DNA of 64,000 bases from Terebella lapidaria (Eukaryota > Annelida > Polychaeta > Terebellida > Terebellidae). The stretch is from NCBI GenBank assembly GCA_949152475.1, contig OX424563.1, positions 4,561,001 through 4,625,000 of the forward strand, in the 5' to 3' direction. Made by a program: the position numbers and the translations under genes. The notes beneath the pieces were generated by a model. The model made no database searches. It was not told the origin of the DNA and worked only from the letters and a program-made list of their open reading frames with translations. This document shows positions 2,498 to 52,616 of the stretch, in pieces; position 1 is the stretch's first letter, and each line of letters begins with the position of its first letter.

Positions 2498-2501
2498 CGT
2501 C
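2498..2501. repeat. target-site duplication, left copy (CGTC)
   Basis: CGTC precedes the left LTR and recurs at 15889-15892 right after the right LTR. The preceding base extends the match to ACGTC on the left, which cannot be separated from the terminal A of the right LTR. Confidence 0.75.
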
Positions 2502-3233
2502 TGTGAAGAATATCGTTCACGGCCGATATTAAGCCGGTTTAACTGGGTCGTCGTGTGATACAATAAGCCGGCAGTTTCAATTTAACTGTTTATTGTGGTG
2601 ATAAAGACTGATGATCAATCACGCACAATCAGGGTCGCACTCTCACCTACGTCGGGTGATATCCCAGTCTATATTCTATATTCCTAATATAGTCCTTTAT
2701 ACAACTTGCACGTATATCCGATAGATTATATATATTAATATCGACAGTCTCACAGGAACTTTTGTATATACGTCCTGCCACTGGGATTTACACTACACTT
2801 CTGCGCAGTATACTGGGGCCGAGGGACCATGTGGCTGTGTAATTTCCCGCCAAGTGTAAGCGGTGTTGTGATAGGTTGAATGTGTGGTGCAATGCGCTGA
2901 TGTCACCGGGAAAGTGGGTTTCCCCGGCTCGTGTCAATACTTGGAATGCCTGTATGTGTGCACGTGATGTATGGAGTATGTGTGTCAAGTTCTATGTTTA
3001 GAAGTCAGTGCATGTGAAGGTCAAGGTCGAGTAAACGGGGCCGAGTGTACTGAGCTAGCGGGGCCGCAGGTGCGTGGTTTGACCTGTGTATGTAACCATG
3101 ACTACATGGAGTTTATGCTTGTGATCGTATAGTGTGTACTTGTCCTGTATGTAAGTCATGTAGAATGAATGTTTGTTGTGGAAATGTATAGTGCGCGGGA
3201 GGGACGGGAGTAACAGTCGCTAAAATTACTACA
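2502..3233 (-). repeat. 3' LTR of the Gypsy-type element
   Basis: 732-bp terminal repeat matching 15157-15888. In element orientation it begins TGTAGTAATTTT and ends ATATTCTTCACA. A possible TATA stretch lies at 2728-2735 and an AATAAA signal (TTTATT on the plus strand) at 2589-2594, giving a plausible U3-R order. It contains about five GGGYCG hexamers. Confidence 0.95.
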
Positions 3234-3736
3234 TAACACCCCTTCATTAATCCTACGCCCTCGGGATTACCCTCCCCGGACCCTACCGTCGCCAAAAACT
3301 AAACAATAAAAAGCTAAAAAGTCCTAAAGGTCAAACCCAAAAGCACTCACACACACACGCCGCGCGAAATGCGAAAACACTGCATACAATAAAAATTCCT
3401 AACTGTCAAAATAAACGTCAGCAGTCAGTCCGTCAGCAGTCTCTACGATGATACATATACAAATACATGCACAACAATGAATGGAATGTATGATATGGAA
3501 TGATAAACAAAACTCCTCGACGTTTCAAAGCGAAACGGAACTATAACTTTAAGAGTCTAACGAACTGAAATAAAATGTAGATTAAATTTAACTAAAATTA
3601 CATGTATAAAAACAAAAAGCCATGACTAGGATATTAAATGTATATGTACACTATTTACAATATATTTGTGCCGTGACCAGAATTGTTTGGTCACTCGGGG
3701 CCGCATCAAAGGGGCCGAACAGTTCAGGGACGAGTT
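3234..3736 (-). other. untranslated region before the 3' LTR
   Basis: Non-coding sequence between the third ORF and the 3' LTR. In element orientation the last bases are AATGAAGGGGTGTTAT, a weak candidate polypurine tract for plus-strand priming. No ORF of note. Confidence 0.5.
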
Positions 3737-6535
3737 TCACTTGTCCTCCCGTTCACGCCTGCTGGCGGGAGGAGGCGGGGCCGCTGGCGATGCCTGCCGC
3801 ATCAGCTGTAGCTGTTCATCCGGGGGTAACCTTGGCAGAATGGACACAATTGTGGCCAAAAGCTCCCCCGGAATGGTCGGTGTGGACGGGGTCGTCGGGG
3901 CTGTTGCCTCCGGAGTAGTTGGGGTCGACGCTGCTTGGAGCCGAGCGTTTTCCTGTTGGAGGTTATCAACTCGATCCTCCAACTGAGTCACGCGAACTCG
4001 GAGCCGAAGATTTTCCTCGGACAGGGCGTCCGGGAACGTGGGCTGGTGGCGCTCATGTAGGGCGCCCATCCCAAAGCCGACAGACAGGCCGTTGTACTCT
4101 GCCTGTCTGATGTGATGATCCAGGGCCGACAGATACTCCCGACGAATTAGTCGCAAGTACTGGTGCGCTAAATCGTCAGCGCGGGCGAGTGACAGGGTCG
4201 GAAGGTGCTCCTCCGGTTCTGACGGCAGGAGCAAGGGGTCGGCGTTGTGGGCGGCCTGTTCGAGACGAGCCGTCCAGAAGTCCTCGTGGAATCCGAGGTA
4301 GTTCGGGAGCCGCTGGGCGTCCTCATCCCGTAGAAAATCTGTGAGGTCGGGATTCTGGCCGGGTAGTGCCTGCAGGCCGGGAAGCGAGCGGGTCGCCAAA
4401 CGTCTGCCGTGTTGCCGCAGGAACTGGAAATCAGCCGCGAACTCGCCGGATCCATGAAGCGGCAGACGCTCGTCGAGGTCTCTGTGGAGTGACTCGAGCT
4501 GCTCTGGGTCGTCCACTTGGAGTCGGGGCCGGTCTCTATCGGTGCCGCGTGTCGGAACGGAGCGCAGAGGCTCCACTTCCTCCGTGAGGTACGGTGGGAG
4601 CGGGACGGGTTCCACCATCCGTCGTGAAGGCTCCGGTGAAGAGTCCGGGGTCGAAAACGGTGTCGGGGTCGCACGTACAGGAGATCCGGGTGCAATCTCC
4701 CTAAGTGGAGGTGGCCGATCCTCAACTGGACTCTTCGGCTCGGGAGTCTCCTTGCCGGTTGATGACGATACCGGTGTGGTATTCAGGGGTCGACTTGGGA
4801 GTGGCGGATACTCCTCAGGTGGAGGGACCAATCCCTCACGGACTCGGTAGTCCGTGACGTTAGAGGCCGTGGGTCGTTCCACAACCATCCGCCGGGGTAT
4901 GATATCCGACGGCCGAGCTCTAGACGGGGTCGAAGATGTCACTGTGGTGACCGGTCGAGTTGTCGCTGGCGACACCACTGTCGCGAACGAAGCCGTCGTG
5001 ACGACCGCCGAGGCCGAAACACCGGTGGTCGTTGTCGGGACCTCCTCCGCCGTGCTCACTGATGTCGTCTGGTAGTTTATGGGCCGAACGAAGAAGATCG
5101 TACTGGGTCGTCGAATTCGAACCCGCGTGTTCATGGTCTCGATGTCACTGACCATGCGGGTAAGCCGAATCTCGTCTGCCGGGGTCGAAGCACGATTGTA
5201 CTCCAGTCGACGGAGTACCTGTTGCACTTCCGGGGCCGAGTTGGGCGGATACTGCTCAAAGAGCTCTGGCGCCATGTGCCAGATGCCGAACGTCAGGACG
5301 GTGTTGACATCCCTCCTGAAGATCGGGATGTTGGCCGGAACTCTTGGGGGTCGATAATTCGGGTTCGGCTGCATGTCGACTCTGCAGCGTAGCGCGAACC
5401 TGACGAGCATGGGGCCGGATGCCGATAGTCGTCCTTCCTGGTAGAAGGGGAACGACGTCACGTGCTGCGGGGTCGCTTGAGACAGATGCCGGAACATCTC
5501 CTCCTGGGCCAATGTCCGGAAGCCGTCGCGGGCCGGACACACGAAGTAGCGCAGGAACGGAAAATGATACGCTAGCACGTGCGCATCAAGACTCTGGGCC
5601 GTCCGAAAAGGTCCGCGTCGTGGCACGGAGGACCACTGTCGTTCTCCTGCTCCCTCCTCTTCGCCGATGCAGAAGGGGCACTCGAATCGACCGTCTCCAC
5701 GCTGTAGCGGGGCCAATGTGAGGAGGTTTCCCTCCGACAGGGTCGACTGCTCATCGAAGTTATGGATGTGGCCGTATCCAGCGCTCCGATTTCGCTTACT
5801 GAGTGGAACCTTGTTCCAGTCTATGGGCCGAGTTCCGTAGGGTGTCACGGGAGATGGCACCAATTCCATCAATTCCGCCACTTGCCGACGGAAAGTCGAG
5901 GTCGGGGCCGTAATAGCAGATCCGCCGCTGGAGCGTGACGAACTGCTGGAGGTCGATCGGGCTCCCGCTCCATGCTTCTTCTTGAAAGAAGTATAAGTTC
6001 TCTTGTTTGGAGAACGGGAGGCCGCAGGTCGTGCTACCGCTGAACCGGAAGCGGGTGAAGTCGGGGCCGGAGCGATCGGGGCGATCACTTGATTTGCTGG
6101 GTCGGGTTGGCGGCTCGCGGTGGCGACTCGTTGAGCTTCTTGGGCCGCTTGTCGTGCTTCAATTGCACGCTGGACAATACTTCCGCCCTCCTCGAGTCGG
6201 CGGAAGCGTTCGGGGTCGATATTGAAGATGTCGTCCGGAGTCGGGCTCGGTGTATGGCGCTCTCCTCGTTGCGCCAGCTTGCTCCGGGCCGTTTTGGGTC
6301 GCGCTCCCTTTTCTGATCCGCTTGCCGTGTCACTGAGCGTGACTGGATCGCGCTGTTCAGGCTGCGAGTCGGGGCCGGACGAAACTTCGTTGTCGGGGAC
6401 GATTATGGGATGATCTGATTCATCCCCGGTGTCGATTACTTGGACAGTGATGTTATCGCCGTCCAACTTAACTGTGCGGGGCCGATTGTCACCTGGGTCG
6501 CTATTTTCCCGGTCGTCTCCGGGTTTGTCAGCCAT
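3737..6535 (-). CDS. third ORF of the LTR element, 932 aa, unknown function
   Basis: A long intact ORF in the env position, from ATG at 6535 to TGA at 3737-3739. It does not look like an envelope protein: I see no signal peptide and no membrane span. The first 280 residues are mostly disordered, with acidic and Ser/Pro/Thr-rich parts and a basic patch at about 177-193 (NKRTYTSFKKKHG) that could serve nuclear import. A C2H2-like finger with a long spacer follows: C286, C289, H319, H324. C333 with H350 and H358 may form a second, incomplete site. Residues 838-870 form a strong coiled coil (LRLRVRVTQLEDRVDNLQQE), and a Pro-rich tail ends the protein. Possible roles are an RNA or DNA binder, an accessory particle protein or an anti-silencing factor; none is shown by sequence. 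A spliced or internally initiated transcript is probably needed, because 1448 bp separate it from pol. Confidence 0.85.
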   Translation of the reverse strand: MADKPGDDRENSDPGDNRPRTVKLDGDNITVQVIDTGDESDHPIIVPDNEVSSGPDSQPEQRDPVTLSDTASGSEKGARPKTARSKLAQRGERHTPSPTPDDIFNIDPERFRRLEEGGSIVQRAIEARQAAQEAQRVATASRQPDPANQVIAPIAPAPTSPASGSAVARPAASRSPNKRTYTSFKKKHGAGARSTSSSSSRSSGGSAITAPTSTFRRQVAELMELVPSPVTPYGTRPIDWNKVPLSKRNRSAGYGHIHNFDEQSTLSEGNLLTLAPLQRGDGRFECPFCIGEEEGAGERQWSSVPRRGPFRTAQSLDAHVLAYHFPFLRYFVCPARDGFRTLAQEEMFRHLSQATPQHVTSFPFYQEGRLSASGPMLVRFALRCRVDMQPNPNYRPPRVPANIPIFRRDVNTVLTFGIWHMAPELFEQYPPNSAPEVQQVLRRLEYNRASTPADEIRLTRMVSDIETMNTRVRIRRPSTIFFVRPINYQTTSVSTAEEVPTTTTGVSASAVVTTASFATVVSPATTRPVTTVTSSTPSRARPSDIIPRRMVVERPTASNVTDYRVREGLVPPPEEYPPLPSRPLNTTPVSSSTGKETPEPKSPVEDRPPPLREIAPGSPVRATPTPFSTPDSSPEPSRRMVEPVPLPPYLTEEVEPLRSVPTRGTDRDRPRLQVDDPEQLESLHRDLDERLPLHGSGEFAADFQFLRQHGRRLATRSLPGLQALPGQNPDLTDFLRDEDAQRLPNYLGFHEDFWTARLEQAAHNADPLLLPSEPEEHLPTLSLARADDLAHQYLRLIRREYLSALDHHIRQAEYNGLSVGFGMGALHERHQPTFPDALSEENLRLRVRVTQLEDRVDNLQQENARLQAASTPTTPEATAPTTPSTPTIPGELLATIVSILPRLPPDEQLQLMRQASPAAPPPPASRREREDK

Positions 6536-7983
6536 GCTGACGGGCCGAAATCAAGCCGAAGTACTTCCCAAGTACTGACTAGGCTGGCTGTAACAAAGTC
6601 TGGATTTCTTCAAAACCAGCCTAGTTCAAATGCCGATGATACAAGCCGAATTAACTCCAAAGTCTTGTGACCAGGATTTCAATGATATCACAGTCTATAG
6701 GCCGATAAATATTGTTCGATTAGCACAGTTTCTATAACAATAGTCTGTATCTCAATAGCCGAAACTTCTGACAATAGTCCTTCTCCTCCAAAGTCTCAGG
6801 CACAAGTGACCTGATTGCCGCTAATCTTCAATGCCGTACACAAAGATGCTGACAGCATCTCGATTCTTAGAACTGGGCCGGGGGGCGCTCTCTATATGTA
6901 TAGAAAACGTCTTTACGCTATGTATCATTGTTCCAAGCGTACACACAGCAAGGCGGGGCCGTCGTCAAGGAAACGCGGGGCGATCCTTCTCTGACCTCTT
7001 GGGTCAGTCCATTACGACAGTAGGGGTGTCCTCACACTGTCCAGATTTCCGTATGTCCAGCTGCCGTCCCCTGGATAACTCGTGCCGAATCATTGTCTTT
7101 TTATACTAGTCGACTGTTCAGATTACTGGGCTCTTTTTGCCCGACGACTCACTATTGTAATTATTAGGGGCGACTTCATGTAGGTGCTGTAAACAGCTAA
7201 AATGTTTATTAGCGCTCGTGCGTGCCTTGTGAACTCATCAGTCCATCATTCCTTCTCCCACAAGTTAGCGCACAATAAACTACGGGGTCGAGTTGCTGTT
7301 TCACAGACGACACACAGTTATTAAAGGCTGAGATATGAATATCAATCACTCACAGGGGCGGACATCGTTCCATTCATTTTCAGCCAGTTCACAGGACGAC
7401 GGGGCCGCAAATATTGTAGGGGTCGAAATTGCAATGATCTGGGTCGGTCACACCGCGGCGCTTTGAATATTTTGGGTGATGAATTTGGTGACAGGCCGCA
7501 TCTTGGCATGATAGCTATGTAGTGACTGGTTCACGTACCACTGGGCCGTTCCTCCGAATATTACATGGAGTGAGTAGAGGCTCTGTCGACGCATACTCCA
7601 GAACGAATCACACTATCACCTCTTCGACAACTAAGTGGCCTTACTCACGGTGTGACTGGTTATTATCCTCTTCGGCTGGCACATGGATTGAAGCTTTACA
7701 TGATAATCTTAGTCATTGCGTAACATACGCCTTGATCAATGGTACATGTTATACGGGGTCGAAACACATATCATAATGCAACCAATTTTTCACCAGCATC
7801 ATAATTATAATATCATATCTAGTGTGTATATAACCAGTTTGCCTCACTGACATCTTGTACATATTAAATGCATATATTGTTATTGTAATATAATATATTA
7901 TTATTGGGAAAGACATGATATCATAGTCCATTAGACATGCATAATTCATCATCAATGGTATCAATCAGATAACAAGGCCGGGG
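6536..7983 (-). other. non-coding gap between pol and the third ORF
   Basis: This 1448-bp stretch is inside the LTR element and has no long ORF. It still carries about nine GGGYCG hexamers (for example 7402, 7420, 7441 and 7756), close to the density of the coding parts, plus several GCCGAA variants. It may hold a splice acceptor or promoter for the third ORF, but I could not define one. Confidence 0.6.
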
Positions 7984-10900
7984 TTATCTGTAGCGGGCCG
8001 GTTTGCGTGCATTGCGTCTGGGTCGATTTGGTCGTGCAGGCGGGGGCGTAGCCTCGCTTGTCTCAGGGTCGGAAGATACCACAGGCTTTTGCCTGCGTGT
8101 CTTGCGTGCCGGTCTTGGAGTGTCGGAACTTGATCTGTGTGATCTTTTCCGTTGTCGATGTCGACTTGAGCCGGATGAGGTCGGAGATCGCGATTGACGA
8201 TCCGGGGTCGTTTGCGAATCAGACTCTGCTGTTTGGTCTGAATCAGTATGCCGATCTTGGACTGTTACCTCCCAAGGGTAATAGAACTCCTTGAGAAGTC
8301 CCATGGGGTCGGGTGACTGTTCTGGGTCGGACTTGCTTGACGACGACGTGGGTCGTACAGGGTCGGAGTAGATGTGGGCCGCTTGGTTGTCACCTTCGTA
8401 TGGCTTGAGCACATCCAGATGAACAACACGAGTGTTCCGAGGGTTGGAAACCAGGGCGATTCGGTAATCAACCTCGGTTACACGGTCGATGATCCTCCAG
8501 GGACCAGTCCAGGGCCGAGCGAACTTATTATTCTGCGTGAGTGGCAGATAATAATACCGGACCAGTTCGCCTGGTTGAAACTGGGGTCGTGGTTTCGCGT
8601 GGGCGTCATAACCCAACTTTTGCCGAATTGCCGCTTTCTCGAGATGGTCTTGGGCGAAACCGTGGGCCGTTCTGATGGCTTGCCGCAAATACTCCACATA
8701 CTCCGGACCACACGGAGGTAGAGGCTCAGGGTCGTAGGTCGGAAACATGAGGTCGACTGGCAAGTTACACTCGTGTCCATACACCATCAGATGCGGGGTG
8801 CATCCCGTGGACGAGTGTACTGAGGTTCGATAGGCCATTAACACATATGGCAAGTGCAAGTCCCAATCGTTTGCACGATCGCTGACGAACGCACTCAGCA
8901 TGTTGAGCAATGTCCTGTTGAATCGCTCAACCTGGCCGTCGCTCTGGGGTCGGTATGGGGTCGTACGAATCTTCTTAGCGCCCAGTAGACGCACAACATG
9001 CCGGAACAGGGACGACTCAAACTCAGTACCTTGATCGCTATGGACCGCTTTGGGGACACCGTGGTAGACTATCCACCGATTCACCAGGGTGTCGGCAACA
9101 TTTTTGGCCGTATGTCGCCGTAGCGGAAAAGCGTCAGTGTACTTCGTGAAGTAGTCCGACACGACTAGCACATACCGATAGCCTCTTCCCGTGACCTTGT
9201 GGGTGTCGAGGATGTCCATCGCTATTCTGTCGAACGGCGCTCCTGTCGGTAGCTGTGTCAGGGGCGATCTTTTTGGGGCCGGTTTACCCTTGCGGGTCAC
9301 ACATTGCGGGCAGCGGGCACACCAGCGGGCGACGTCCAGCGCCAAGCCGGGCCAGTAGAATCGGCGCCTGACTCTCTCGATGGTACGCTGTATGCCGAGA
9401 TGTCCGACAATCTTGAGGTCGTGTAGTTGGTGCAGAACTTGTGTCCTGAGTGCTACGGGGAGCACGGTTTGCACCACGGGCCGTCCAGCAGGGTCGGGTT
9501 TTATATGTCGAACTAGCACACCGTCTTGTAGCGCCAGGAGGTTCCAGCGGGAAACAAGTGTCTTTACCTCCTCTCCTTGGCGGGCGACTTCTCGTGAGTC
9601 GGGCTTGGTGCCGGCTAGTATCCATTGCCGCACTTTTCCGACGCTGGGGTCGGCTTGCTGTGCCGCGACAATGTCCTGGGTCGAATAGTCCGAAAGCCAC
9701 TTTTGTCCATCAAGTGTGGCGTCCAAAGCACGGACTCGAACAACTTGGCGTGCCGAAACTAGCTGGGGCAAGACCGGTGATGTTATCGAATCACTGTCCA
9801 GGAGGTCTGCCCTTGTCTGGGTCGGAACAACAGTTATCCGACGAACTGGAAGTTCTCCGGAACTTGTTTCTGGGTCGGTCGGAGGTGTGACGAGTCGTCC
9901 GGGACAGTCTTGGTGTTTGCAACTGTGGCACCGTGACAAGCCGTCGGCGTTACCGTGTAATTTTCCGGGTCGATGCTCTATCCGAAAGTCATACTGCTGT
10001 AGCTTGGCGAGCCACCTAGCGAGCATGCCGTCGGCGTCGCTGTAGTTTTTCAGCCACCTTAGCGAGCTATGGTCGGTTCGGAGGAGGAATTTCCTACCCC
10101 AGAGGTAGTGCCGATAGTGTTGCACCATCTCAACTACTGCCAGTAGTTCCCGATAGGTGGTGCAATAGTTCCGCTGGGTCCGGGACAGGGTCTTGCTGGC
10201 GAACCCGATGGGGATCTCCTTCCCGTCAACCCTTTGTGAGAGGGCTCCTCCCACAGCAAAGCCGCTTGCATCCGTATCGAGGATGAAGTAGTCCTCCGGA
10301 TTCTGGGTCGGATGAGCGAGCTTGGGCGCCTTGATGAGGGCGTCGCGGAGTCGCTGGAAAGCTCGTCGCTGGGCCGGTCCCCAAGTGAAGTGGCATTCAC
10401 CTCGGGTAAGCGCTACGAGAGGTTCAGCGATCTCAGCGTAGTCCTTGATGAATCGCCTGTGGTAGTTGGCGAAACCAAGGAAAGCCCTGACGTCGGTGAT
10501 CTCGCACGGGGTCGGCCATTCTCTGATGGCTTTGACTTTGTTGGGGTCGACTCGGATTCCTTGGCCGCTCACTATGAACCCTAAGTACAAGATTTCCCGT
10601 TGAAATAACTCACACTTCTTGGGCTGAAGTTTCAGGCCTGCCGATCTGATTCGATCCAGGACCGCTTCCAGGTTTGCGAGTGCCTGGTCGAATGTTCTGC
10701 CGTAAGCTATCACGTCGTCGAGATAGCACATACACCGGGTCCACAAGTAACCACGGAGTATGGTCTCCATAAGCCGTTCGAAGGTTGCCGGGGCGTTGCT
10801 AAGGCCGAATGGCATGACCTTAAACTGATAGAGTCCCTTCCTTGTGGCGAAGGCAGTCTTCGGTCTGTCGCTGGGGTCGACTTCAACCTGCCAGTAGCCA

Positions 10901-12558
10901 GAGGCCAGGTCTAGGGCCGAGAAGTAGTTGGCGCCTGCCAGGGCGTCATGAGTATCCTGAATGTTGGGCAAGGGATACGAATCCTTGCGGGTGACGTCAT
11001 TCAGGAGCCGATAGTCGACACAGAAGCGTACCTGTCCGTTCTTCTTCCGCACGAGCACTACCTGTGCGCTCCAGGGCGAATCGGACGGCTCAATACACCC
11101 CAAGCGGAGCATCTTGTCGATCTCCTCGTCGATGATGCTTTGCTGTGCCTGAGGGACGCGTCGCTGTCGTTGTCGAATTGGGGCCGAGTTGCCGGTGTCG
11201 ATTCTATGCTGGACGACTTGGGTCCGTCCCAGTTGGCCGTCTGGGTGCATAAATGTGTCCTGGTATTGGTGAACCAGGTTGGCGCAACGCCGATGCTGTT
11301 CCGGCGCTAGTCCGGCGCGATCCACCATTTCTTGTAGATGTGGCGGTAGGTCGCGGTAGTGACTGGCGTCTACCGTGGCCGGGTCGGGCTCCTCTCCGGG
11401 TCGTGGCAGAGCTCCGACGACACTTTCGACAGGGCTTGCTATGGCGACAGGGTCGGAACGGGTGAGCGTAATGCCGGTATCTGCTGGATTGACTACCGAC
11501 ACCTTTACGCACTGCCGATTCAGGGTCGTAAGTGTTCTCCCCATGATGAGGTCGGTTTCCTCGGGAAAGGTCGTAAGTGGCTGGACTATCCTCGGGTGTT
11601 GTCGAACTCGAACTCGGGAAGTCGGGACCAGCTCCACTATTGCTTCGCTGCGTGCGGGGACGGTGACAGCTCGTCGCACGGCCATTCTGACAACATTGGC
11701 CTCAATGTCTTTATGTGCGAACAGGATTTCTTTGTGTACCTGTATCGTTCCTTCACCGTAATTCACTACAGCGTGAGCTTGCCGAAAAAAGTTCATGCCG
11801 AGAATCATGTCGTCATGTATGTCAGCCACACAAAAGGTTACGACCATATGGTTAGTTCCGACCTGTATTGAGAGGTCGATCAGTCCATCGATCGGGCTTG
11901 ACTGTCCGGTGACGTCACGAATAATAGCCGAAGTAGACCGCAAATGTCGCTGGTCAGCGGGGACGTGACGTAGCTGATCGCGTCGGAGCAGGGAGATCTG
12001 CGCTCCGGAGTCGAGTACAGCCTTTATCGTCTTGTTTCCGACGTGTACCGGCAACTTCCAGCATTTGTGATTGGTGGCGCTGGAGTTGTTGATGACAGCC
12101 GGAATTTCGGGGTCGTCTAGCGGTGGCCGGAAGAGTGTGTGCAGAGGCGGCAGTTTGGATTCCGGTCCACTCGGAAAAGCGTAGAATCCTCCGTCGTCGG
12201 AGATCCACTCGATCTCGGACATGCTGTCCGTTCCGGTGCCGTTGGCGGTCGGGGGTGACACCCCTTCAGGACGACGGTCTCCACGTGGTGGTCGCTGTGG
12301 CCGCGGTGCGGACACCCCTTCATGAAAAGAGGCCGATTTCGGGGTCGGAGCTTGACATTTTGTACACACCCCTTCAAGGAGCTGAGGTGTGGGCTGGGCC
12401 GGCTGCGGGGTCGTTATTGGTGTCGTTACCGGTACAGTAGTCGTGACAACCGCAGATGTGGAGCGGGGAACGTTGTCCTGTTGTCTGGAAGGTCCTTGCT
12501 CCTCAGCACCTTCCCCTACTGGTTTGACGACGGGGTCGGAGGTGTTGGTGGGGCCGGT
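7984..12558 (-). CDS. pol: Pol polyprotein: protease, RT, RNase H, integrase
   Basis: The frame is open from 12558, where it overlaps the end of gag in the -1 frame, to the stop at 7984. No ATG lies at the head, so it is probably made by -1 frameshifting as Gag-Pol. Residue numbers here count from the GTG codon at 12369. An aspartic protease has DSGA at 120-123. The RT carries the YLDD catalytic box near 545. RNase H has DTDASG and a TDHSS motif. Integrase follows with an HHCC finger (HLGIQR ... CARCPQC) and a DDE core: MDILD near 1050, SDQG near 1110, and E exactly 35 residues further in GQVE. After it, a GPW-containing module resembles the GPY/F domain. I saw no clear chromodomain. The basic tail runs to the stop. 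All catalytic residues are present and no break is visible. Confidence 0.95.
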   Translation of the reverse strand, partial: TGPTNTSDPVVKPVGEGAEEQGPSRQQDNVPRSTSAVVTTTVPVTTPITTPQPAQPTPQLLEGVCTKCQAPTPKSASFHEGVSAPRPQRPPRGDRRPEGVSPPTANGTGTDSMSEIEWISDDGGFYAFPSGPESKLPPLHTLFRPPLDDPEIPAVINNSSATNHKCWKLPVHVGNKTIKAVLDSGAQISLLRRDQLRHVPADQRHLRSTSAIIRDVTGQSSPIDGLIDLSIQVGTNHMVVTFCVADIHDDMILGMNFFRQAHAVVNYGEGTIQVHKEILFAHKDIEANVVRMAVRRAVTVPARSEAIVELVPTSRVRVRQHPRIVQPLTTFPEETDLIMGRTLTTLNRQCVKVSVVNPADTGITLTRSDPVAIASPVESVVGALPRPGEEPDPATVDASHYRDLPPHLQEMVDRAGLAPEQHRRCANLVHQYQDTFMHPDGQLGRTQVVQHRIDTGNSAPIRQRQRRVPQAQQSIIDEEIDKMLRLGCIEPSDSPWSAQVVLVRKKNGQVRFCVDYRLLNDVTRKDSYPLPNIQDTHDALAGANYFSALDLASGYWQVEVDPSDRPKTAFATRKGLYQFKVMPFGLSNAPATFERLMETILRGYLWTRCMCYLDDVIAYGRTFDQALANLEAVLDRIRSAGLKLQPKKCELFQREILYLGFIVSGQGIRVDPNKVKAIREWPTPCEITDVRAFLGFANYHRRFIKDYAEIAEPLVALTRGECHFTWGPAQRRAFQRLRDALIKAPKLAHPTQNPEDYFILDTDASGFAVGGALSQRVDGKEIPIGFASKTLSRTQRNYCTTYRELLAVVEMVQHYRHYLWGRKFLLRTDHSSLRWLKNYSDADGMLARWLAKLQQYDFRIEHRPGKLHGNADGLSRCHSCKHQDCPGRLVTPPTDPETSSGELPVRRITVVPTQTRADLLDSDSITSPVLPQLVSARQVVRVRALDATLDGQKWLSDYSTQDIVAAQQADPSVGKVRQWILAGTKPDSREVARQGEEVKTLVSRWNLLALQDGVLVRHIKPDPAGRPVVQTVLPVALRTQVLHQLHDLKIVGHLGIQRTIERVRRRFYWPGLALDVARWCARCPQCVTRKGKPAPKRSPLTQLPTGAPFDRIAMDILDTHKVTGRGYRYVLVVSDYFTKYTDAFPLRRHTAKNVADTLVNRWIVYHGVPKAVHSDQGTEFESSLFRHVVRLLGAKKIRTTPYRPQSDGQVERFNRTLLNMLSAFVSDRANDWDLHLPYVLMAYRTSVHSSTGCTPHLMVYGHECNLPVDLMFPTYDPEPLPPCGPEYVEYLRQAIRTAHGFAQDHLEKAAIRQKLGYDAHAKPRPQFQPGELVRYYYLPLTQNNKFARPWTGPWRIIDRVTEVDYRIALVSNPRNTRVVHLDVLKPYEGDNQAAHIYSDPVRPTSSSSKSDPEQSPDPMGLLKEFYYPWEVTVQDRHTDSDQTAESDSQTTPDRQSRSPTSSGSSRHRQRKRSHRSSSDTPRPARKTRRQKPVVSSDPETSEATPPPARPNRPRRNARKPARYR

Positions 12559-15092
12559 TTAGTTTGGTTACCGGTTTGGTTAGGTACTGACAACACTTGA
12601 GCTGTCCTTCTGTCAGTACCGGGACCATTGGGCCGAAATGCTAGCGGTTTCATGCCGTTACGTACTAGCACATCCTTAAGCCGAAAGCATCGCATCCAGC
12701 GATGGCCGGGCTTCTTGCAAAAGAAGCAAACCATGGGTCGTCCGGGTTGCGGGGGTCGATCACCTTTCATCGGGGCCGTTGTTCGTAGGACAGAGAAGAT
12801 AGCCGTTTCCTCGCACAGTCCATTCTCGTCACTAAGGACGCACTGGAAGGCTTCAGCCACCCACTCGCGTGAGCTGGTTGGCACTGAGTGTTCGTCGCAA
12901 CCTTGTAGGCCGGTAGTGTCACTGTCCGCGGGGTCGTAGTAGGCCGCAATTTGCTCTGGGGTTAGTGTTTCCCCCTGAGTGACTTGTCCCATGGCACAGG
13001 ACAGTTCCTCATTGACAGGGTCGTCTTCCGCGTATCCACTGGCGGAAATGTCAGCACGTCGTGTGCCTCGATGTCGATCTCTGGCTGTCCTCTGTTGACG
13101 ACTCTCTACCTTGAGAACGGCCGTGAGTGCCTCACTGTAACTGTTAAAAGTGAGGGCACACAGTTTATCGGCAATGGGGTCGGGTTGGCCGTTCACGAAT
13201 TGCGCAATTACAGTTCGTTGCCGCGACGTTGGCGTAACGTCGTCGAACACTTGCTCCGCCAGGGCTTGGAGTCGCTCCATGTAGTGTTCCGCGTCCTCTT
13301 TTCGTTCCCGCTTGAGGAACGGGAAATCGTCCCGTTTGGACTGTCGACGGGGCTCGGGTTCCCAGCCCTCTAGGAGTTGGCGACGGAACTCTCCCCAGGG
13401 AGTTGCGACCGGGATATTGAGAGCTAGCGCTTCAGCGCGGCCGCGTAGCGTGCTCCGGAAGGTCGTCGTCTTGTTGAGGTCGGAGTAAGTAAAGGCCGCA
13501 GCGAATTGTTCGAAACTCCGAACGTATTGAGTGAGATTGCCCTCCTTAAAGGTCGCACGCCATTGAGCCATTTTAGCCGTAGCCAACGTTTGGGGCTCAG
13601 ACGTGAGTCTCTGTGGCGTGGGCGTGTCAACACTCACCGCAACTGGTGTAGTCGCTGTAGTGGCCGTCGGGGTCGGAACAGCCGAAGTCGCCGGAGCCGT
13701 CGTATCTGGGCCGATCGGGGTCGCGTTAGCGGGGGCGGTCGGTGCTGTCGTCGCGGAGACGGCGAGCGATGCGGCGGGTGGTGCCGTCGTGTGGCTGGGG
13801 TCGTGTGGTGCTTGTGCAGCGGGGGCCGGTTGACTGTATGGAGGCGTCACCCATGGTATCCCGACTGAGGGTGGGAATACAGCCGGTGGTGGATATCGGT
13901 ATACCGATCCATCCGGGCATACACCATGGTACACTAATCCGGGTTGTGTACCATGATAGCCGGTGTCAGCGATCACGCTGGGAACGCCACCATATCCAGG
14001 CGGTGGGTTCGCGTAGCCGACATGCGGTGAATAGTATCCGACAGCTACTCCATTTGGAACACCGCTTGTTGCGCCAGGGTATCCGACTGGCGGTACACCA
14101 TATCCGTTGGTGTTTCCGACTGATTGTGAGATCGGAGGTCCGATCATTTGCACAACACTTTCTGCCGGAGCAGACACAACTTGATCTTGCGACGGATCGA
14201 AGCGCGGTTGTTCTCCGGTAGTCGGCGATGGTCGGTGCGTGGTCGGCGCGGGAGCGCGTGTGTCGGAAGTCGGCGTGTCGGGGTCGCAGGGTCGGCGACT
14301 TGATGTCGAGGGTGCTTGTCGGGGTCGCGCTTGTCGCATGGTGGCGCGAGGTTCCGCCATTGTGTCGCTGGGTCGTTGTTGTCGTAGCGGCGTCGCGATC
14401 CGGGTAGCGGTCGTCATCAGGATGTCTTCGGATGTCGCTCCCGTCTGGCTGGGTCGTGTGTACTCTACCACCGTAGGCTCGGTCGGTATGCGTGAGTACA
14501 TTTCTGGCGCGGGGCCGTGTTGTCTCGGCGTCATGGACGGCGCCAGGGGTCGATTGGCCGAATAAGCGTTCGGCGGGGTCGATTCCGGAACATTGTCAGA
14601 CTGACAAACCCACTGTCGTATCCGAGAGTTACTTGGTGGGTGCGTAACCATTGACGTGTCTATGGTTACCGGCCGAACGTCCACTGCTAATTGTTCTGGG
14701 TCGATATCACAATCTACGCTCGCTCTTTGACGTGAGCGCGTATAGTTTCTGTCGGCAAAGTCACTTTTCTGGGTCGCTCTAGCCGGCGTGGCCGAGTACG
14801 CTCTAGCGTGCGCACGCAGAATGTCACTTACTGTATGTGACGGGTCGAGCGGGTCTTCGTCTAGGAACTCCTGCACCAGGTCGGTAGGCGGCGAAAACGA
14901 TCTCAGGGACGAATGGTCGCCAATGGAGTCGAAAAGGCCGGACGGTTGTTGCTCCTGCGACAGTGGAACTGTATCGCTCATGGCAACTGAGCGAGGGCCG
15001 GAAGGTCGGAAGGCCGGATTCGGATTGATCGTCACTTCATCATCCGTAGGGTCGAGTGGCTCACTGCGGGAGGCTCCCGGGGCTAATGCCAT
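12516..15092 (-). CDS. gag: Gag polyprotein of the Gypsy-type element
   Basis: An 858-aa structural protein starting at the ATG at 15092; an in-frame TTG lies one codon upstream. The N-terminal half is low-complexity and rich in Pro, Thr and Ser. A Gly/Tyr/Pro-rich stretch sits near the middle. A capsid-type domain of the retrotransposon gag family follows (WRATFKEGNLTQYV onward). A CCHC zinc knuckle, CFFCKKPGHRWMRC (C-x2-C-x4-H-x4-C), lies near the C terminus and should bind the element RNA. Gag would assemble the cytoplasmic particles in which reverse transcription occurs. The ORF ends TAG at 12516-12518. The pol frame is open from 12558, giving a 43-nt overlap in the -1 frame. Confidence 0.93.
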   Translation of the reverse strand: MALAPGASRSEPLDPTDDEVTINPNPAFRPSGPRSVAMSDTVPLSQEQQPSGLFDSIGDHSSLRSFSPPTDLVQEFLDEDPLDPSHTVSDILRAHARAYSATPARATQKSDFADRNYTRSRQRASVDCDIDPEQLAVDVRPVTIDTSMVTHPPSNSRIRQWVCQSDNVPESTPPNAYSANRPLAPSMTPRQHGPAPEMYSRIPTEPTVVEYTRPSQTGATSEDILMTTATRIATPLRQQRPSDTMAEPRATMRQARPRQAPSTSSRRPCDPDTPTSDTRAPAPTTHRPSPTTGEQPRFDPSQDQVVSAPAESVVQMIGPPISQSVGNTNGYGVPPVGYPGATSGVPNGVAVGYYSPHVGYANPPPGYGGVPSVIADTGYHGTQPGLVYHGVCPDGSVYRYPPPAVFPPSVGIPWVTPPYSQPAPAAQAPHDPSHTTAPPAASLAVSATTAPTAPANATPIGPDTTAPATSAVPTPTATTATTPVAVSVDTPTPQRLTSEPQTLATAKMAQWRATFKEGNLTQYVRSFEQFAAAFTYSDLNKTTTFRSTLRGRAEALALNIPVATPWGEFRRQLLEGWEPEPRRQSKRDDFPFLKRERKEDAEHYMERLQALAEQVFDDVTPTSRQRTVIAQFVNGQPDPIADKLCALTFNSYSEALTAVLKVESRQQRTARDRHRGTRRADISASGYAEDDPVNEELSCAMGQVTQGETLTPEQIAAYYDPADSDTTGLQGCDEHSVPTSSREWVAEAFQCVLSDENGLCEETAIFSVLRTTAPMKGDRPPQPGRPMVCFFCKKPGHRWMRCFRLKDVLVRNGMKPLAFRPNGPGTDRRTAQVLSVPNQTGNQTKPAPPTPPTPSSNQ

Positions 15093-15137
15093 CAATGCCG
15101 GTCAGGTCTGGGTCGATAATCCGAGACTAGCTCAGAT

Positions 15138-15155
15138 CCTGGTCGAACGGCGCCA
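15138..15155 (-). other. primer-binding site
   Basis: One base inside the 5' LTR the element strand reads TGGCGCCGTTCGACCAG. TGG complements a tRNA CCA end, as expected for minus-strand DNA priming. I could not assign the tRNA with confidence. Confidence 0.7.
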
Positions 15156-15156
15156 A

Positions 15157-15888
15157 TGTGAAGAATATCGTTCACGGCCGATATTAAGCCGGTTTAACTG
15201 GGTCGTCGTGTGATACAATAAGCCGGCAGTTTCAATTTAACTGTTTATTGTGGTGATAAAGACTGATGATCAATCACGCACAATCAGGGTCGCACTCTCA
15301 CCTACGTCGGGTGATATCCCAGTCTATATTCTATATTCCTAATATAGTCCTTTATACAACTTGCACGTATATCCGATAGATTATATATATTAATATCGAC
15401 AGTCTCACAGGAACTTTTGTATATACGTCCTGCCACTGGGATTTACACTACACTTCTGCGCAGTATACTGGGGCCGAGGGACCATGTGGCTGTGTAATTT
15501 CCCGCCAAGTGTAAGCGGTGTTGTGATAGGTTGAATGTGTGGTGCAATGCGCTGATGTCACCGGGAAAGTGGGTTTCCCCGGCTCGTGTCAATACTTGGA
15601 ATGCCTGTATGTGTGCACGTGATGTATGGAGTATGTGTGTCAAGTTCTATGTTTAGAAGTCAGTGCATGTGAAGGTCAAGGTCGAGTAAACGGGGCCGAG
15701 TGTACTGAGCTAGCGGGGCCGCAGGTGCGTGGTTTGACCTGTGTATGTAACCATGACTACATGGAGTTTATGCTTGTGATCGTATAGTGTGTACTTGTCC
15801 TGTATGTAAGTCATGTAGAATGAATGTTTGTTGTGGAAATGTATAGTGCGCGGGAGGGACGGGAGTAACAGTCGCTAAAATTACTACA
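15157..15888 (-). repeat. 5' LTR of the Gypsy-type element
   Basis: 732-bp terminal repeat, the same length as the copy at 2502-3233 and identical wherever I compared the two. As the upstream LTR it should hold the element's promoter. Transcription runs leftward into the primer-binding site and gag. Confidence 0.95.
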
Positions 15889-15892
15889 CGTC
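15889..15892. repeat. target-site duplication, right copy (CGTC)
   Basis: Matches 2498-2501 and marks the right edge of the LTR element. Confidence 0.75.
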
Positions 15893-18455: not shown

Positions 18456-20709
18456 TCAGCACGCGACGTAGGCGCTGCCGATGAAGAAGTTGGTTGGGTT
18501 CCCGGTGCCAGGCTCGTCCCAGGTTTGTATTCCCACCGGGTAGTTGTCAAGGTCGCATGTGTAGACGTAGTTAGGCTCGAACGTGAAAATTGTCGTGTAG
18601 ATGGCGATTTCACTCTCAGGACTCGTCCTCATCCACACCGAGTCGATGCTCTTGGGGAATCCATACCACTCCAGGGAGAACTTGGGCACGTCAGGCTGCG
18701 AGGGGCGAGCAAATCAAATAAAAGAAATTAAGTTTTAGATGTTGTGTACCAGTATTATGCTTGCTCATTTACCACGTGGGTGATATGGTGAAAAATTGGT
18801 GATGATAAGAAATATATGCGTGGTTCAATATCAGACTGCCCAAGAGGTTAATGTTTTCGAGTTCACCAATTGTTTCCAATAAGTGCTTTTAATAGTATGT
18901 AGCCTCTCATAGTTAGACTTATTGTATACGACAACACATGAGATATCTCACGTCACAGATGTCTTGGTGGCCTGTGATGACGAGATTTCCCCTCTGCTCC
19001 TCCTGATACAATCTGTACCAGTTGTGGAAGCCTCCTACGTCATTGCCTTCTATCTTTAGCTCCCCTGAGAACACGTGCTGGACGGGTGGGAATTTCATTT
19101 TTTCAAGTTTTTTTTATATAACAGCGATCTCTGCGGAATTCAAATGATATGTTTTTCATTATTTATCACTCGGCCCCAACCTGGAAACCAGAGCTGTCGT
19201 TCACAGCGTGTCTCTCGTACGGATGAAACCAAATGTCTCGCAGATACCTCCAGAAGTCTGCCGGGTCGGCGTACTCGGGCACTGCAACATAACGTTTGCA
19301 CCTGCACATGCACCTCGATATAGCAGTGTATCATGTATAGGGAGGATCTCAACACAGGGGCTCCTCGATATGAAGAGACAACTCAATATGCGAATTATGA
19401 TAAATGGGCACCTCGATATAAGGCGGGTCGTGATGCAGAGGCACCTACGAAACCATCAATACACACAGTTACAACTGAACAGTCATCTGTAGCACAAGAC
19501 CACAGTCATGAGCCCCGAGTGGTCTAGGTAAATGTACATGTATTGGATACGTCTTAGGCGGAGATTCAGAACTCCAATTTACTTAAGTATCTACCTCTAC
19601 TCCCGTTCTAGATCCAAACATTTCGAAAATCTGCTGGATTGGTTAAGATGATGGCAATTATAAAAACATGGCCTATGCAGTGTCGGGTGATAGCTCACGG
19701 TATGAGGCGATGAAGGCGTGGGCCTCCTGTATGGGCGGGGTGTCCATGAGGGCGTCCACGAATGCGTCCTCCAGGGCCAGGCAGGCGGGGTCAGAGTAGC
19801 AAGGGTCGGACACACCCTCATTGATGTCGTAGCTGTCCAGGAGCTGCTTGAAGATAGTCCACGTCGGTGACGTCAGCTTTTCCTCGTTGACGTATACAAA
19901 CAATCTGTCGACATTGCACTTAATTGTGATACCAGTTTCACATTTTAGAAAAAAATTGTAGATAAACGACTCAGGGTTTTCCTTTTGGCTGAATAGGCCA
20001 CATACATGTAAGTACTGACACATAAAAGAATGTCTGGAAGGCTTTGCTAGTTCGTACCCAGAACCCTCTATGGTTTTACTTTTTTTGTTATACTGAAGTG
20101 AACAGTATGGATGTGATGATAAGTTTGACTGACGGTTGTCCGGCTGAAGTGGTGTTGAAGAGCAAGTCGCTGTCACACATCCTGTCGACATCAGACTCCC
20201 AGATCCGCTTGGTCGCGGCGTTCAGGGTGTCTGAGTCCGGCTGGGCTACAGGGGCAAAACCAGTGGGAATCGAAATCCACGCGGTGATAGGTTTCAAGAA
20301 GAATATTTATACTTTACCAGGCCACTATGGCGACACGTGTACGGTTGCTGTCAATTGAGCCCAGTGAGTCTCCGATGTTCGCCTCCTCTGCGAAACTCAG
20401 GACTTAAATACTCTGATTTGTTACACTGGTTTTTGACGATATCTTTGCGATGCTGAATGTTATCGCTTTATAACTTGGCATACTTCCTGGTGGTCAAACG
20501 GCAAGTTTCTGGCAAAAATTCAGACTTCTATCGCAAAATTAGAGTATATACATGTATTGTCATTCCGTTTGGGAATGCTTTAGTTTTAGGCGTATTACAA
20601 TACACGAAATCTTGAAGTCTGTATGGACATTTTCCGGTAATACACATTTCCTAATTCACTTACCACAAACCCAACCAAGGCACAGAAGGAACACAAGTAT
20701 TGGGGGCAT
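18456..20709 (-). CDS. secreted EndoU-family endoribonuclease, copy A
   Basis: Six coding exons (20709-20664, 20245-20134, 19904-19699, 19281-19181, 19077-18952, 18695-18456) join in frame to 276 aa plus stop. All donors are GT and all acceptors AG. The first exon encodes a signal peptide (MPPILVFLLCLGWVC), so the product is probably secreted or vesicular. EndoU/XendoU enzymes cleave single-stranded RNA at uridines using two His and one Lys. Here these are H156 in GFQHVF, H173 in GFHNW and K212 in PKSIDS, in the family order and near-family spacing. The fold start (IWESDVDRM) and the SPESEIAIY segment also match. It is a divergent paralogue of copy B, with one extra intron splitting the active-site exon exactly between GFQ and HVF. 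No break is visible. Exon borders are inferred from sequence. Confidence 0.9.
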
Positions 20710-28954: not shown

Positions 28955-31900
28955 GCCACACAGAAGACCAAGCCCAAACAGTCGAGTGCAGAGCGACCGA
29001 AATGGAAGGAGACCCTCAAAGACATACACAGTGATCAGATGCAAGGTACGTTGTACGGGTGTAGCCCAGTAGACCTACATTCAATTCTCTCACTTTCACT
29101 CTTCTATGCATTATTCTTTCTTTTCTATTCTTTTGGTTCTCTGATATGATTCGGTGAATGAAGAGCACAATTTATATATCAATGCAAATCAGGTTTTACT
29201 TTTAAAAATGAACATGGAGGTATTATCACATACGTTTTTCATCAGTGAGGCTTGCCTGTAACCAATATTATCTATTTATTAGGGTGCTCTAGTGAATAAA
29301 TCCGATGGCTTAATGTATACACAGGTATACAGGAGGCGTTTCGGATGTTTGACCGTAATAAGGATGGCACGATCAGCATCAGCGAGCTGCGGACCATCAT
29401 GCAGATCCTTGGGAACAACCCTACAGAGAAAGATATAAAGAAAGTCATGAAGGAGGCAGACAGGGACGGTCAGTGTCCGGGGTGTGAATGTTACTATGGA
29501 AACAAACACACAGAGAAAGACATCAAGAAAGTCATGAGGGAGGCAGACAGGGACGGTCAGTGTCCGGGTGTAAATGTTACTATGGCAACAAACACACAGA
29601 GAAAGACATCAAGAAAGTCATGAGGGAGGCAGACAGGGACGGTCAGTGTCGGGTGTAAATGTTACTATGGCAACAAACACACAGAGAAAGACATCAAGAA
29701 AGTCATGAGGGAGGCAGACAGGGACGGTCAGTGTCCGGGTGTAAATGTTACTATGGCAACAAACACACAGAGAAAGACATCAAGAAAGTCATGAGAGAGG
29801 CAGACAGGGACGGTCAGTGTCCGGGGTGTGAATGTTACCATGGCAACAACCCCACAGAGAAAGACATAAAGAAAGTCATGAAGGGGGCAGACAGGGACGG
29901 TCAGTGTCCGGGGTGTGAATGTTACCATGGCAACAACCTTACAGAGAAAGACATAAAGAAAGTCATGAAGGAGGCAGACAGGGACGGTCAGTGTCCGGGG
30001 TGTGAATGTTACCATGGCAACAACCTTACAGAGAAAGACATAAAAAAAAGTCATGAGAGAGGCAGACGTACAGGGACGGTCAGTGTCCGGGGTGTGAATG
30101 TTACTATGGCAACAAACACACAGAGAAAAATATCAAGAAAGTCATGAGGGAGGCAGACGGGGACGGTCAGTGTCCGGAGTGCGAATGTTACTATGACAAC
30201 AAACACACAGAGAAAGACATCAAGAAAGTCATGAGGGAGGCAGACAGGGACGGTCAGTGTCCGGGGTGTGAATGTTACTATGGCAACAACCCAACAGAGA
30301 AAGATATAAAGAAAGTCATGAAGGATGCAGACAGGGACGATCAGTGTCCGGGTGTGAATGTTACTATGGCAACAACCCAACAGAGAAAGATATAAAGAAA
30401 GTCATGAAGGAGGCAGACAGGGACGGTCAGTGTCTGGGAGTGAATGTTACTATGGCAACAACCCAACAGAGAAAGATATAAAGAAAGTCATGAAGGAAGC
30501 AGACAGGGACGGTCAGTGTCCGGGTGTGAATGTTACTATGGCAACAACCCAACAGAGAAAGATATAAAGAAAGTCATGAAGGAGGCAGACAGGGACGGTC
30601 AGTGTCTGGGTGTGAATGTTACTATGGCAACAACCCAACAGAGAAAGATATAAAGAAAGTCATGAGAGGCAGACAGGGACGGTCAGTGTCCGGGTGTTTA
30701 TGTTCCCATGGGAACAACGGTCCCCACAGAAAAAGACGTAAAGAAAGTCATGAGGGAGGCAGACAGGGACGGTCAGTGTCCGGGTGTAAATGTTACTATG
30801 GCAACAAACACACAGAAAAAGACATCAAGAAAGTCCTGAGGGAGGCAGACAGGGACGGTCAGTGTCCGGGTATGAATGATATCATGGCAACAAACACACA
30901 GAAAGAAATCAAGAAAGTCATGAGGCAGGCAGACAGGGACGGTCAGTGTCCGGGTATGAATGTTATCATGGCAACAAACACACAGAAAGACATCAAGAAA
31001 GTCATGAGGCAGGCAATCAGGGACGGTCAGTGTCCGCGGTGTAAATGTTCCCATGGGAACAACCCCACAGAAAAAGACATAAAGGAAGTCATGAGGGTGG
31101 CAGACAGGGACGGTCAGTGTCCGGGGTGTAAATGTTCCCATGGGAACAACCCCACAGAAAAAGACATAAAGAAAGTCATGAAGGAGGCAGACAGGGACGG
31201 TCAGTGTCCAGGTGTGAATGTTACCATGGCAACAACCCCACAGAGAAAGACATAAAGAAAGTCATGAGGGAGGCAGACAGGGACGGTCAGTGTCCGGGGT
31301 GTGAATGTTACCATGGCAACAGCCCTATAGAGAAAGACATAAAGAAAGTCATGAGGGAGGCAGACAGGGACGGTCAGTGTCCAGGGTGTAAATGTTACCA
31401 TGGTAACAACCCCACAGAGAAAGACACAAAGAAATTCATGAGGGGGGCAGACAGGGACGGTCAGTGTCCGGGGTGTAAACGTTACCATGACAACGACTAC
31501 AGGAAGAGAGAGAGAAGGCGTGCCAATATTACTATAACGTAGAATGTGGAATATGGAAGGCTCCGATAGCACTATTTGTTACTGATAGGACTAAATTTAC
31601 ACGAGATACCCTAACCCAAACTAATTGATATCTGTGCCTAATCAGTTGGCCTCTAATTTTAAGACATAATGACCTTTTCAGAGTGAAGAAAGGTAATAAT
31701 TGTTGTGCTCTCTGCTCGTGACCGGTGACCCTTAGGTAATGATGATAACGTTTGTATTGGTTGATTTAGGCCTCGTATAAGTACATACAGAGAATTATTG
31801 TAATAATATGACCGTGCATACAAGTGAACATGACCTTATCGAGATAATATTGTTGGATTGGTATAATGATTAATTGATTGTCTGAATAAGCGCCACACAA

Positions 31901-51309: not shown

Positions 51310-51310
51310 T

Positions 51311-51378
51311 AGGTTACCGGACCTATGGTCCGATAACCTATTGGCATGGCGTTGCGTCCGTCGTCCGTCGTCCGTCGT

Positions 51379-51410
<32 letters not shown>

Positions 51411-52616
51411 CACATTTTTATCTTTTTTGTTTACGGACGAATTTTTCTGAAATTTTGCACAAAAATACTTAAAAATAATTCAAGAAGGAGGTATTTTTTA
51501 GTTTTTTGATTTTCGCATTTTTTTCAAAATGGCGGCCGTTTTCGACGAAAAATGCCTGATTTTGGACTTTGGCGGCCATTTTCTCAAAATCTGTTCAGTA
51601 ACTTTTTTTCTTTTTGATACATAAGACTCCTCATATGTACTCCTATGATGTCTATAAATTTCGTTGCGCTTGAATCGCTCGAAGTGGGCCATTTTGGCCC
51701 AAACTCGGCCCAAATGGGACTTTCCCATGTTAAATTCTCCTATGCTTTATAATGGGACACATTATGCCTAATATCTCACTTGATATTAAGATTAGAGACT
51801 AGGAATCAATTGTGGACATATAGGAAATGATATATGCTGAATATTCTCGTGACCTTGAATTTGACCTCTGACCTCAGTTTCAGGGTCAGAGCACAAAATG
51901 GCTTATATCTCGCTTATCATCGACTCTACAGCTTAGGAATCAATTGTGAACACATAGGAAATGATATATGCTGAATATTCTGATGACCTTGAATTTGACC
52001 TTCGTCCTCATTTTCAAGGTCACAGGACAAAATAGCTAATATCTCGCTTGTTATCGACTTTACAGCTTAGCAATCGATTATGAACATATAGGAAATGATA
52101 TATGCAGATTATTGTCATGACCTTGAATTTGACCTTTGACCTCGTTTTCAAGGTCACAGGACAAAATGGCTAATATCTCACTTATTATCGATTTTACAGC
52201 TTAGGAATCAATTGTGGACATATAGGATATGATATATGCTGAATATTCTCGGGGCCTTGAATTTGACCTCTGACCTCATTTTCAAGGTCACAGGACAAAC
52301 TGGCTCATATCTTGCTCCTCTATTGACTGTATGGCTTGGGAATCAATTGTGGACATGATATAGAAAATGATATACATTGAATATTTTGATGACCTTGAAT
52401 TCGACCTTTGCCCCTTCATTTTCAAGGCCACAGCACAAAATTGCTAATATCTCTCTGATTATTGAATTAACAGCTTAGCAATCAACTGTGGACATGATAT
52501 ATGCTTAATGTTATATATGCTGAATATTCTCTTGACCTTGAATTCAACCAGTGACCTGGCTAACATCTAAAATATTAAACATTGTCCGGTAACCTATCTT
52601 CGGCCCTTGTTATTTT
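51311..52616 (+). repeat. AAGGTCA-rich foldback element, copy 4
   Basis: It follows copy 3 directly, sharing a T run, with the same hairpin head, a long GTC run at 51357-51412 and about six monomers. A perfect DR1 is at 52130. The 3' end has drifted (CGGCCCTTGTTATTTTT). Confidence 0.88.

Follow-up and report, generated by a model that had tools for sequence, protein, structure and literature searches.

Structure of the element and its hexamer

The window, that is, the whole 64,000-nucleotide stretch of DNA that was analysed, carries a Ty3-type LTR retrotransposon (family A) on its minus strand, the parts of which are listed in Table 1. Identical LTRs with TG...CA ends, a short target duplication, a primer binding site and a pol ordered as PR-RT-RNase H-INT (Pfam matches at residues 107-197, 440-600, 691-793, and 971-1141) agree with a Ty3/mdg4 (Gypsy) element. 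No Pfam match was obtained for gag. In the searched genome assembly of 761.6 Mb, at least 53 gag and at least 49 ORF3 matches were 98-100% identical to the query, and the element is young and repeated. An errantiviral or retroviral env identity was looked for by profile only. Pfam gives no env match for the A ORF3, and an env reading of the third ORF is further opposed by zinc-finger matches in sister families. A word-limited protein search with ORF3 of A returned no homologs among 7991 scored candidates, and scans of viral contigs, run once with the single pol sequence and once with a pol alignment, gave no match.

Table 1. Features of the family A element, with CGRCCC motif counts in the sense orientation (shuffles are codon-preserving)
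Feature	Position	Strand	Remarks
Family A Ty3-type LTR retrotransposon	2502..15888	-	122 sense CGRCCC, 0 antisense
Target site duplication CGTC	2498..2501 (partner 15889-15892)		
5' LTR (sense)	15157..15888	-	732 bp, identical to 3' LTR; 5 motifs
Putative primer binding site TTGGCGCC...	15137..15156	-	adjoins 5' LTR
gag ORF	12516..15095	-	859 aa; CCHC knuckle by eye; 27 motifs vs 8.3 ± 2.5 in shuffles, maximum 17
pol ORF	7984..12369	-	PR-RT-RNase H-INT; 36 motifs vs 9.5 ± 2.6 in shuffles, maximum 19
Non-coding pol-ORF3 gap	6536..7983	-	1.45 kb; 9 motifs
ORF3, candidate recogniser	3737..6535	-	932 aa; 35 motifs vs 6.9 ± 2.3 in shuffles, maximum 16
ORF3 possible double zinc-finger domain	5462..5686	-	non-canonical; CPFC...LDAHVLAYH, FVCPARDGF...H...H
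ORF3 possible coiled coil	3911..4024	-	near C-terminus; weak below-cut-off Pfam matches in A, B, B2
3' LTR (sense)	2502..3233	-	732 bp; 5 motifs

Elsewhere in the window, a single-exon ORF at 47303-47725 (+) matches Tom22 (Pfam E 2e-13) and may represent a gene exon or a retrocopy, and an exon-like ORF at 19676-20191 (-) matches the endoribonuclease XendoU (E 6e-10). Such gene matches, along with the repeats, suggest an animal genome. Pieces of a reverse transcriptase gene, DIRS-like by eye, lie at 57333-57719 and 62786-63208 (+), with a Pfam RT match only in the downstream piece, and a LINE with endonuclease and reverse transcriptase at 58902-62039 (-) appears to have inserted in this gene and split it. 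Arrays of 134-bp repeats at 50014-52290 and 53404-54783 are inverted, with arms up to 95% complementary, and an 86/87-bp tandem array at 29307-31510 has long open frames on both strands.

An earlier sequence-only reading had reported about 120 GGGYCG hexamers in the element, almost none in the reverse form, and no such density in the flanks. This is borne out by 122 GGGYCG and no CGRCCC on the plus strand within 2502-15888, compared with 12 GGGYCG and 8 CGRCCC outside the element, where the window has 50.6 kb. Since the element lies on the minus strand, the motif in sense orientation is CGRCCC, present as CGACCC (n = 77) and CGGCCC (n = 45). As had also been claimed, it occurs in gag, pol, the third ORF, the gaps and both LTRs, and the positions named in a gap (7402, 7420, 7441, and 7756) agree with the site list. 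Besides the sites in Table 1, two lie in the ORF3-LTR gap and three in two short gaps; 98 of the 122 are inside gag, pol or ORF3.

The chance count of 6.5 given at the time assumed equal bases and becomes 15.7 ± 4.3 with the element's own dinucleotides (300 first-order Markov shuffles, maximum 31), while the excess itself stands. The same shuffles contain 6.7 ± 2.3 antisense sites (minimum 1), and with none observed, antisense sites in A seem to be avoided. All three reading frames are used, and codon-preserving shuffles (2000 per gene) fall far short in gag, pol and ORF3, each of which lies above its shuffle maximum; the motif is explained neither by codon usage nor by dinucleotides. Non-coding sequence, with one LTR counted, holds 19 motifs versus 1.1 in shuffles, and the one-mismatch neighbours of the motif occur only 0-19 times each versus 77 and 45 for the two variants. 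The flanks of the sites favor non-G at +6 and G at +7 (79/122), giving the logo CGRCCC(H)G. Site spacing is as random (KS p = 0.41), with no period over the 95% level of random placements. Among the in-window controls (the LINE, the DIRS-like region and other DNA), a comparable hexamer excess was seen only in tandem-repeat or satellite stretches.

Constraint on the motif in family A

Across 30 copies of ORF3 of A, none of the 125 variants common to two or more copies falls in a motif (expected 9.4), nor does any of the 109 shared synonymous variants (expected 10.5, p 1.6e-5). Singletons avoid the motif less (6/113 vs 8.5; synonymous 1/75 vs 7.2), and control hexamers of the same composition were hit by variants about as often as expected (12 vs 14.2). 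The motif in ORF3 of A is under purifying selection. In the pol-ORF3 gap of 10 alignable copies, 0 of 50 variable sites are in motifs (expected 2.0), and gag of eight copies has only four variable sites, one of which is in a motif. The corresponding test on 21 pieces of family B (2/44 shared variants vs 4.1) points in the same direction and is not significant.

Sister families carry motifs of their own

Sister families were found via the pol homologs P0017, P0042, and P0080 and a piece of the B ORF3. They comprise B (L039, with an intact ORF3 from a second copy, L043, and 20 short pieces, L045-L064), B2 (L044), C (L040), D (L041), E (L042), F (L065), G (L066), and H (L067), each read from one or two copies, none of them whole, with only 4 kb each for F, G, and H. 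A third ORF follows pol in nine of nine families, all of which were recovered through pol or ORF3 queries; it is damaged in L039 and runs off the stretch in F and H. Further families occur among the pol-homolog matches, for example at C17:19768845 with a 1638-aa frame.

A check proposed with the sequence-only reading, that sister elements should keep the same motif at other positions, turned out otherwise, as the families have different motifs. B and B2 carry CGRACT and D carries GCGGAG, for which the CCTCCGCA position weight matrix finds 61 sense and 92 antisense sites. The motif of E is GCGGAAG; CGTTCGCGGAAG occurs 32 times in sense and never in antisense, in two frames read as VRG and (F/L)AE peptides. 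C contains a 21-nt tandem array with ACGGTGCC, and exact CGGTGCC occurs nine times within this array and not at all in gag, pol or ORF3, for which reason C lends weak support. F, G, and H show weaker local clusters of GGGCGA, TCGGTA, and GACGGG, respectively.

Specificity was compared among A, B, B2, C, D, and E with both strands summed and observed counts set against shuffles. CGRCCC reaches 122 versus 22.8 in A and at most 16 in the other five, CGRACT 59 versus 11.6 in B and 53 versus 9.9 in B2, TGCGGAG 65 versus 2.1 in D (0-2 in the others), and TCGCGGAA 28 versus 0.4 in E (0-1 in the others). The strong motifs are near-exclusive among these families, apart from CGRCCC in C, which is at twice its expectation (14 vs 6.5 in shuffles).

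Motif clusters lie near the ORF3 start in D (L041, sense 7477-7586), E (L042, sense 7200-7304), F (L065, 2623-2693), and H (L067, 3092-3162), as if they belonged to an ORF3 promoter or leader, and the exact C copies and most G copies are in 3' regions. In family E, 126 scored matches to the C-terminal part of ORF3 (L042) are 100% identical, with frames of 352-473 aa, and this length variation possibly reflects gain and loss of motif units at the ORF3 start.

The pol proteins of A and B are 81.5% identical. Aligned A sites coincide with a B motif at 1 of 36 sites in pol, 1 of 26 in gag and 0 of 35 in ORF3, and the alignments show differing bases at all six motif positions. As motif positions of the two families almost never coincide, point substitution has created and removed sites since the families split. 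Identity to B is lower for pol codons at A motifs than for the others (0.68 of 100 vs 0.825 of 1357, Fisher p 7e-4). The idea that motif gain overrides conserved protein residues was rejected, since A motif codons retain the residue like other codons do (35/42 and 656/776) in columns with the same residue in half or more of 14 homologous pols. A and B motif sites fall where the protein is free to vary.

Zinc fingers in ORF3 and their recognition code

The product of the third ORF had been named as a possible recogniser, and it is the best candidate, as ORF3 of the sister families C, D, E, F, G, and H contains two C2H2-type fingers. C and H alone exceed the Pfam zf-C2H2 cut-off of 25.2 bits (36.3 and 27.2 bits, two stretches each); by eye, the last residue of the second H finger is Cys (C2HC). 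F and G remain slightly below it (24.0 and 23.6 of 25.2 bits), and D and E have sub-cut-off matches to zf-H2C2_5 (1.4e-4) and zf-H2C2_2 (4e-3), respectively. The finger pairs of D, E, F, and G can be aligned to those of C and H, and all six share the Cys pairs, the first His and two Arg without exception. An AlphaFold2 model of the E fingers has a pLDDT of 77, and its top fold matches are CTCF and the Tramtrack-DNA complex, the latter with two fingers, although none of the matches is at E <= 0.001. With ORF3 of D, a word-limited protein search found no homologs among 7996 scored candidates.

ORF3 of A is homologous to ORF3 of B and B2, and a finger-like domain is conserved in all three. No zinc-finger Pfam match was found with the whole A protein, and the fragment 5423-5722 matches zf-Di19 below the Pfam cut-off (E 0.0075). 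The A/B domain aligns with the C-H fingers at an hhalign probability of 4%. An AlphaFold2 model of the A domain, built from three sequences, was discarded at a pLDDT of 35. Weak coiled-coil matches occur in ORF3 of A, B, B2, C, and D. Binding of CGRCCC by ORF3 of A is putative, its finger-like domain being non-canonical.

In the recognition code of zinc fingers, a small residue reads T. Arg, Lys, and His read G, Asn and Gln read A, and Asp reads C, according to the available text of the published code (PMC12264921). For D and for E alike, the code gives GCGGAN, which is found 117 times versus 27.5 in D (top 0.1% of patterns, and the top pattern together with its own complement) and 63 times versus 26.9 in E (top 0.2%, and the top pattern after A/T runs). 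Among the 24 base permutations of the code, the true one scores best. The C fingers decode to NCGGNG and ACGGTG is observed, the strict pattern being marginal (z 2.4), and the strict patterns decoded for F and H (GNGGGN) and G (GCGGNA) are not enriched in the 4 kb available for each (z F -1.8, G -0.4, H -0.8). The E sequence scores slightly higher for the G prediction than for its own (z 7.7 vs 6.9) because GCGGAA fits both. Permutation of the finger patterns among the six families gave 36/720 (p = 0.05).

The local clusters are better fitted by RNGGGC in F, TCGGTA in G and ACGGGR in H, in an alignment made after seeing the data, in which the 5' base does not match in G, in H and for some of F. 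In this post hoc fit, the middle base of the second triplet agrees with the matching finger residue (Asn-A, His-G, small-T) in six of six families (8/720 permutations), and the aligned C-H motifs have [nnG][Gnn] in common, with the two Arg that would read GG invariant in the six pairs. The A and B motifs are on the same scaffold, [nCG][R..], and the Arg position of C-H is Ala; this residue would fit the relaxed purine, given a putative homology to the C-H fingers. A reading of the A/B fingers by the standard code was rejected, as their residues fail to decode to the motif.

Strand orientation

Sense and antisense counts are 122/0 in A, 57/2 in B, 48/5 in B2, 34/0 in E, 11/1 in C, 41/45 in D, 8/3 in F, 8/2 in G, and 10/2 in H. 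The tandem-duplication arrays of C and E can give one orientation without selection, in which the dispersed A and B sites differ. In predicted RNA, A motifs are less paired than controls of the same composition (0.505 vs 0.434, p 1e-4), partly because the complementary GGGYCG is absent, whereas the difference in B falls short of significance (p 0.10) and in D and E pairing is higher in the motifs than in the controls, so that predicted RNA accessibility gives mixed evidence overall.

Discussion

We put the probability at roughly 0.6 that each family encodes a protein which recognises the family's own repeated motif, a VANC-like self-address most likely read on DNA. The site that the two zinc fingers of this protein, encoded downstream of pol, would read spans some 6 bp and follows [nnG][Gnn] in C-H, with the looser forms [nCG][RCC]C in A and [nCG][RAC]T in B. 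Being carried many times, the site would gather the protein on copies of its own family, where it would most likely act on element DNA as VANC does and keep the family's chromatin open and transcribed. If binding is a matter of site density, any further site would help and selection for more sites would follow, with coding DNA filled by point substitution in A and B and arrays built instead in C and E. What the sequences show is the motif with its strand bias, its constraint in A, its specificity to families, the fingers of C-H and a partial agreement with the code; what we infer is binding itself, the DNA substrate, an anti-silencing or transcriptional effect, and the binding of CGRCCC by ORF3 of A.

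A tentative alternative is that ORF3 binds the sense transcript or an RNA:DNA hybrid at dispersed sites, for export, protection or packaging of gRNA in the manner of CERV or Rev. The sequence-only reading likewise proposed recognition in sense RNA, arguing that a duplex DNA site favors neither strand, an argument that lacks support as stated given the symmetric D motif and the fit of the D and E fingers to the DNA code. The proposal itself draws on the sense excess in A, B, B2, and E, and also in C and, with small counts, in F, G, and H, on the depletion of antisense sites and the lower pairing in A, on the need of another LTR element, Cer1, for its protein CERV in gRNA export (PMC10309623, available text), and on the existence of engineered zinc fingers that bind DNA-RNA hybrids (PMC3526281, PMC6894256, available text). 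Since A avoids antisense sites, sense RNA may yet be the substrate, although D uses both strands; the D and E motifs, the mixed pairing results and the one-way growth of the C and E arrays without selection weigh against it, and DNA is the likelier substrate. DNA binding alone leaves the 122:0 ratio of A unaccounted for, and the antisense avoidance asks for an orientation-specific step, through RNA, a hybrid or a polar DNA-bound complex. That the two-finger code co-evolves with an oriented whole-element tag read on the sense strand (in RNA or hybrid, also in DNA), by which each family marks and handles its own molecules and no others, as a layer of self-recognition over coding sequence, is doubtful.

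A host transcription, chromatin or RNA factor that recognises the motif and is exploited by the element, with another role for ORF3, is unlikely. In its favor, nucleic-acid binding by ORF3 of A is putative and decoding of the A/B fingers does not give the motif. Against it, sisters in one host differ in motif and would each need a host factor of their own, the motifs of D and E agree with the fingers of these families, and outside the element no more than 20 sites, counting both strands, occur in 50.6 kb of the window. Least of all do we expect that a mutation or editing process, codon-pair bias or composition made the hexamer without selection. The element is C-rich in sense, but the excess over Markov and synonymous shuffles extends to non-coding sequence and drops sharply at one mismatch, the A/B differences affect each of the six motif positions, the motif is spared by shared variants, and a sister with so similar a pol has another motif.

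For the preferred reading, a self-address read by an element-encoded protein, the VANDAL elements and their VANC protein, named as a precedent in the sequence-only reading, proved a good lead in motif density, orientation and family specificity. VANDALs are Mutator-like DNA transposons. They belong to plants, whereas the elements here are animal LTR retrotransposons whose sister proteins have C2H2-type fingers. In the available text on VANC, dense same-orientation sites define its targets (PMC5735166). The likeness to the Arabidopsis system, as far as the available texts describe it, lies in an element-encoded protein (here a candidate), dense short family-specific motifs, same-orientation arrays, and motifs that differ between related families (PMC5735166, PMC10398659); dense, same-orientation, family-specific short motifs were found here as well, with D symmetric. 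According to the same texts, VANC21 sites are mainly in non-coding tandem repeats, whereas most A and B sites are in coding DNA (PMC5735166, PMC10398659). VANC counteracts silencing by demethylation and derepression, effects that are putative for the self-address proposed here.

Repeated sites for a C2H2 zinc-finger protein inside a Ty3/gypsy element are known from Su(Hw) in Drosophila gypsy, but there a host protein binds one short cluster, compared with an element-encoded protein and sites over the whole body. KRAB zinc-finger proteins, in the available sources, recognise particular retroelement families as well but are host repressors, whereas the fingers here are element-encoded. CERV of Cer1 in C. 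elegans is likewise an extra LTR-element protein, has a possible zinc site as well as a potential leucine zipper, and surrounds fibrils that are probably gRNA; it differs in its spliced mRNA and in the possible zinc site being of C4 and not C2H2 type, and a dispersed hexamer is not mentioned in the available text (PMC10309623). A comparable animal LTR system was not found in the open-licence full-text literature, which is no proof of its absence in print.

If this reading is true, sequence-specific self-recognition of transposable elements, to our knowledge described for plant VANDALs, would extend to animal LTR retrotransposons, and the protein class involved would be one with a partly readable DNA code. 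In family A, coding sequence would be saturated with a non-coding signal, a site occurring about every 110 bases. With up to eight motif/finger pairs, one genome would then serve as a natural experiment on how a DNA-binding protein and its targets co-evolve.
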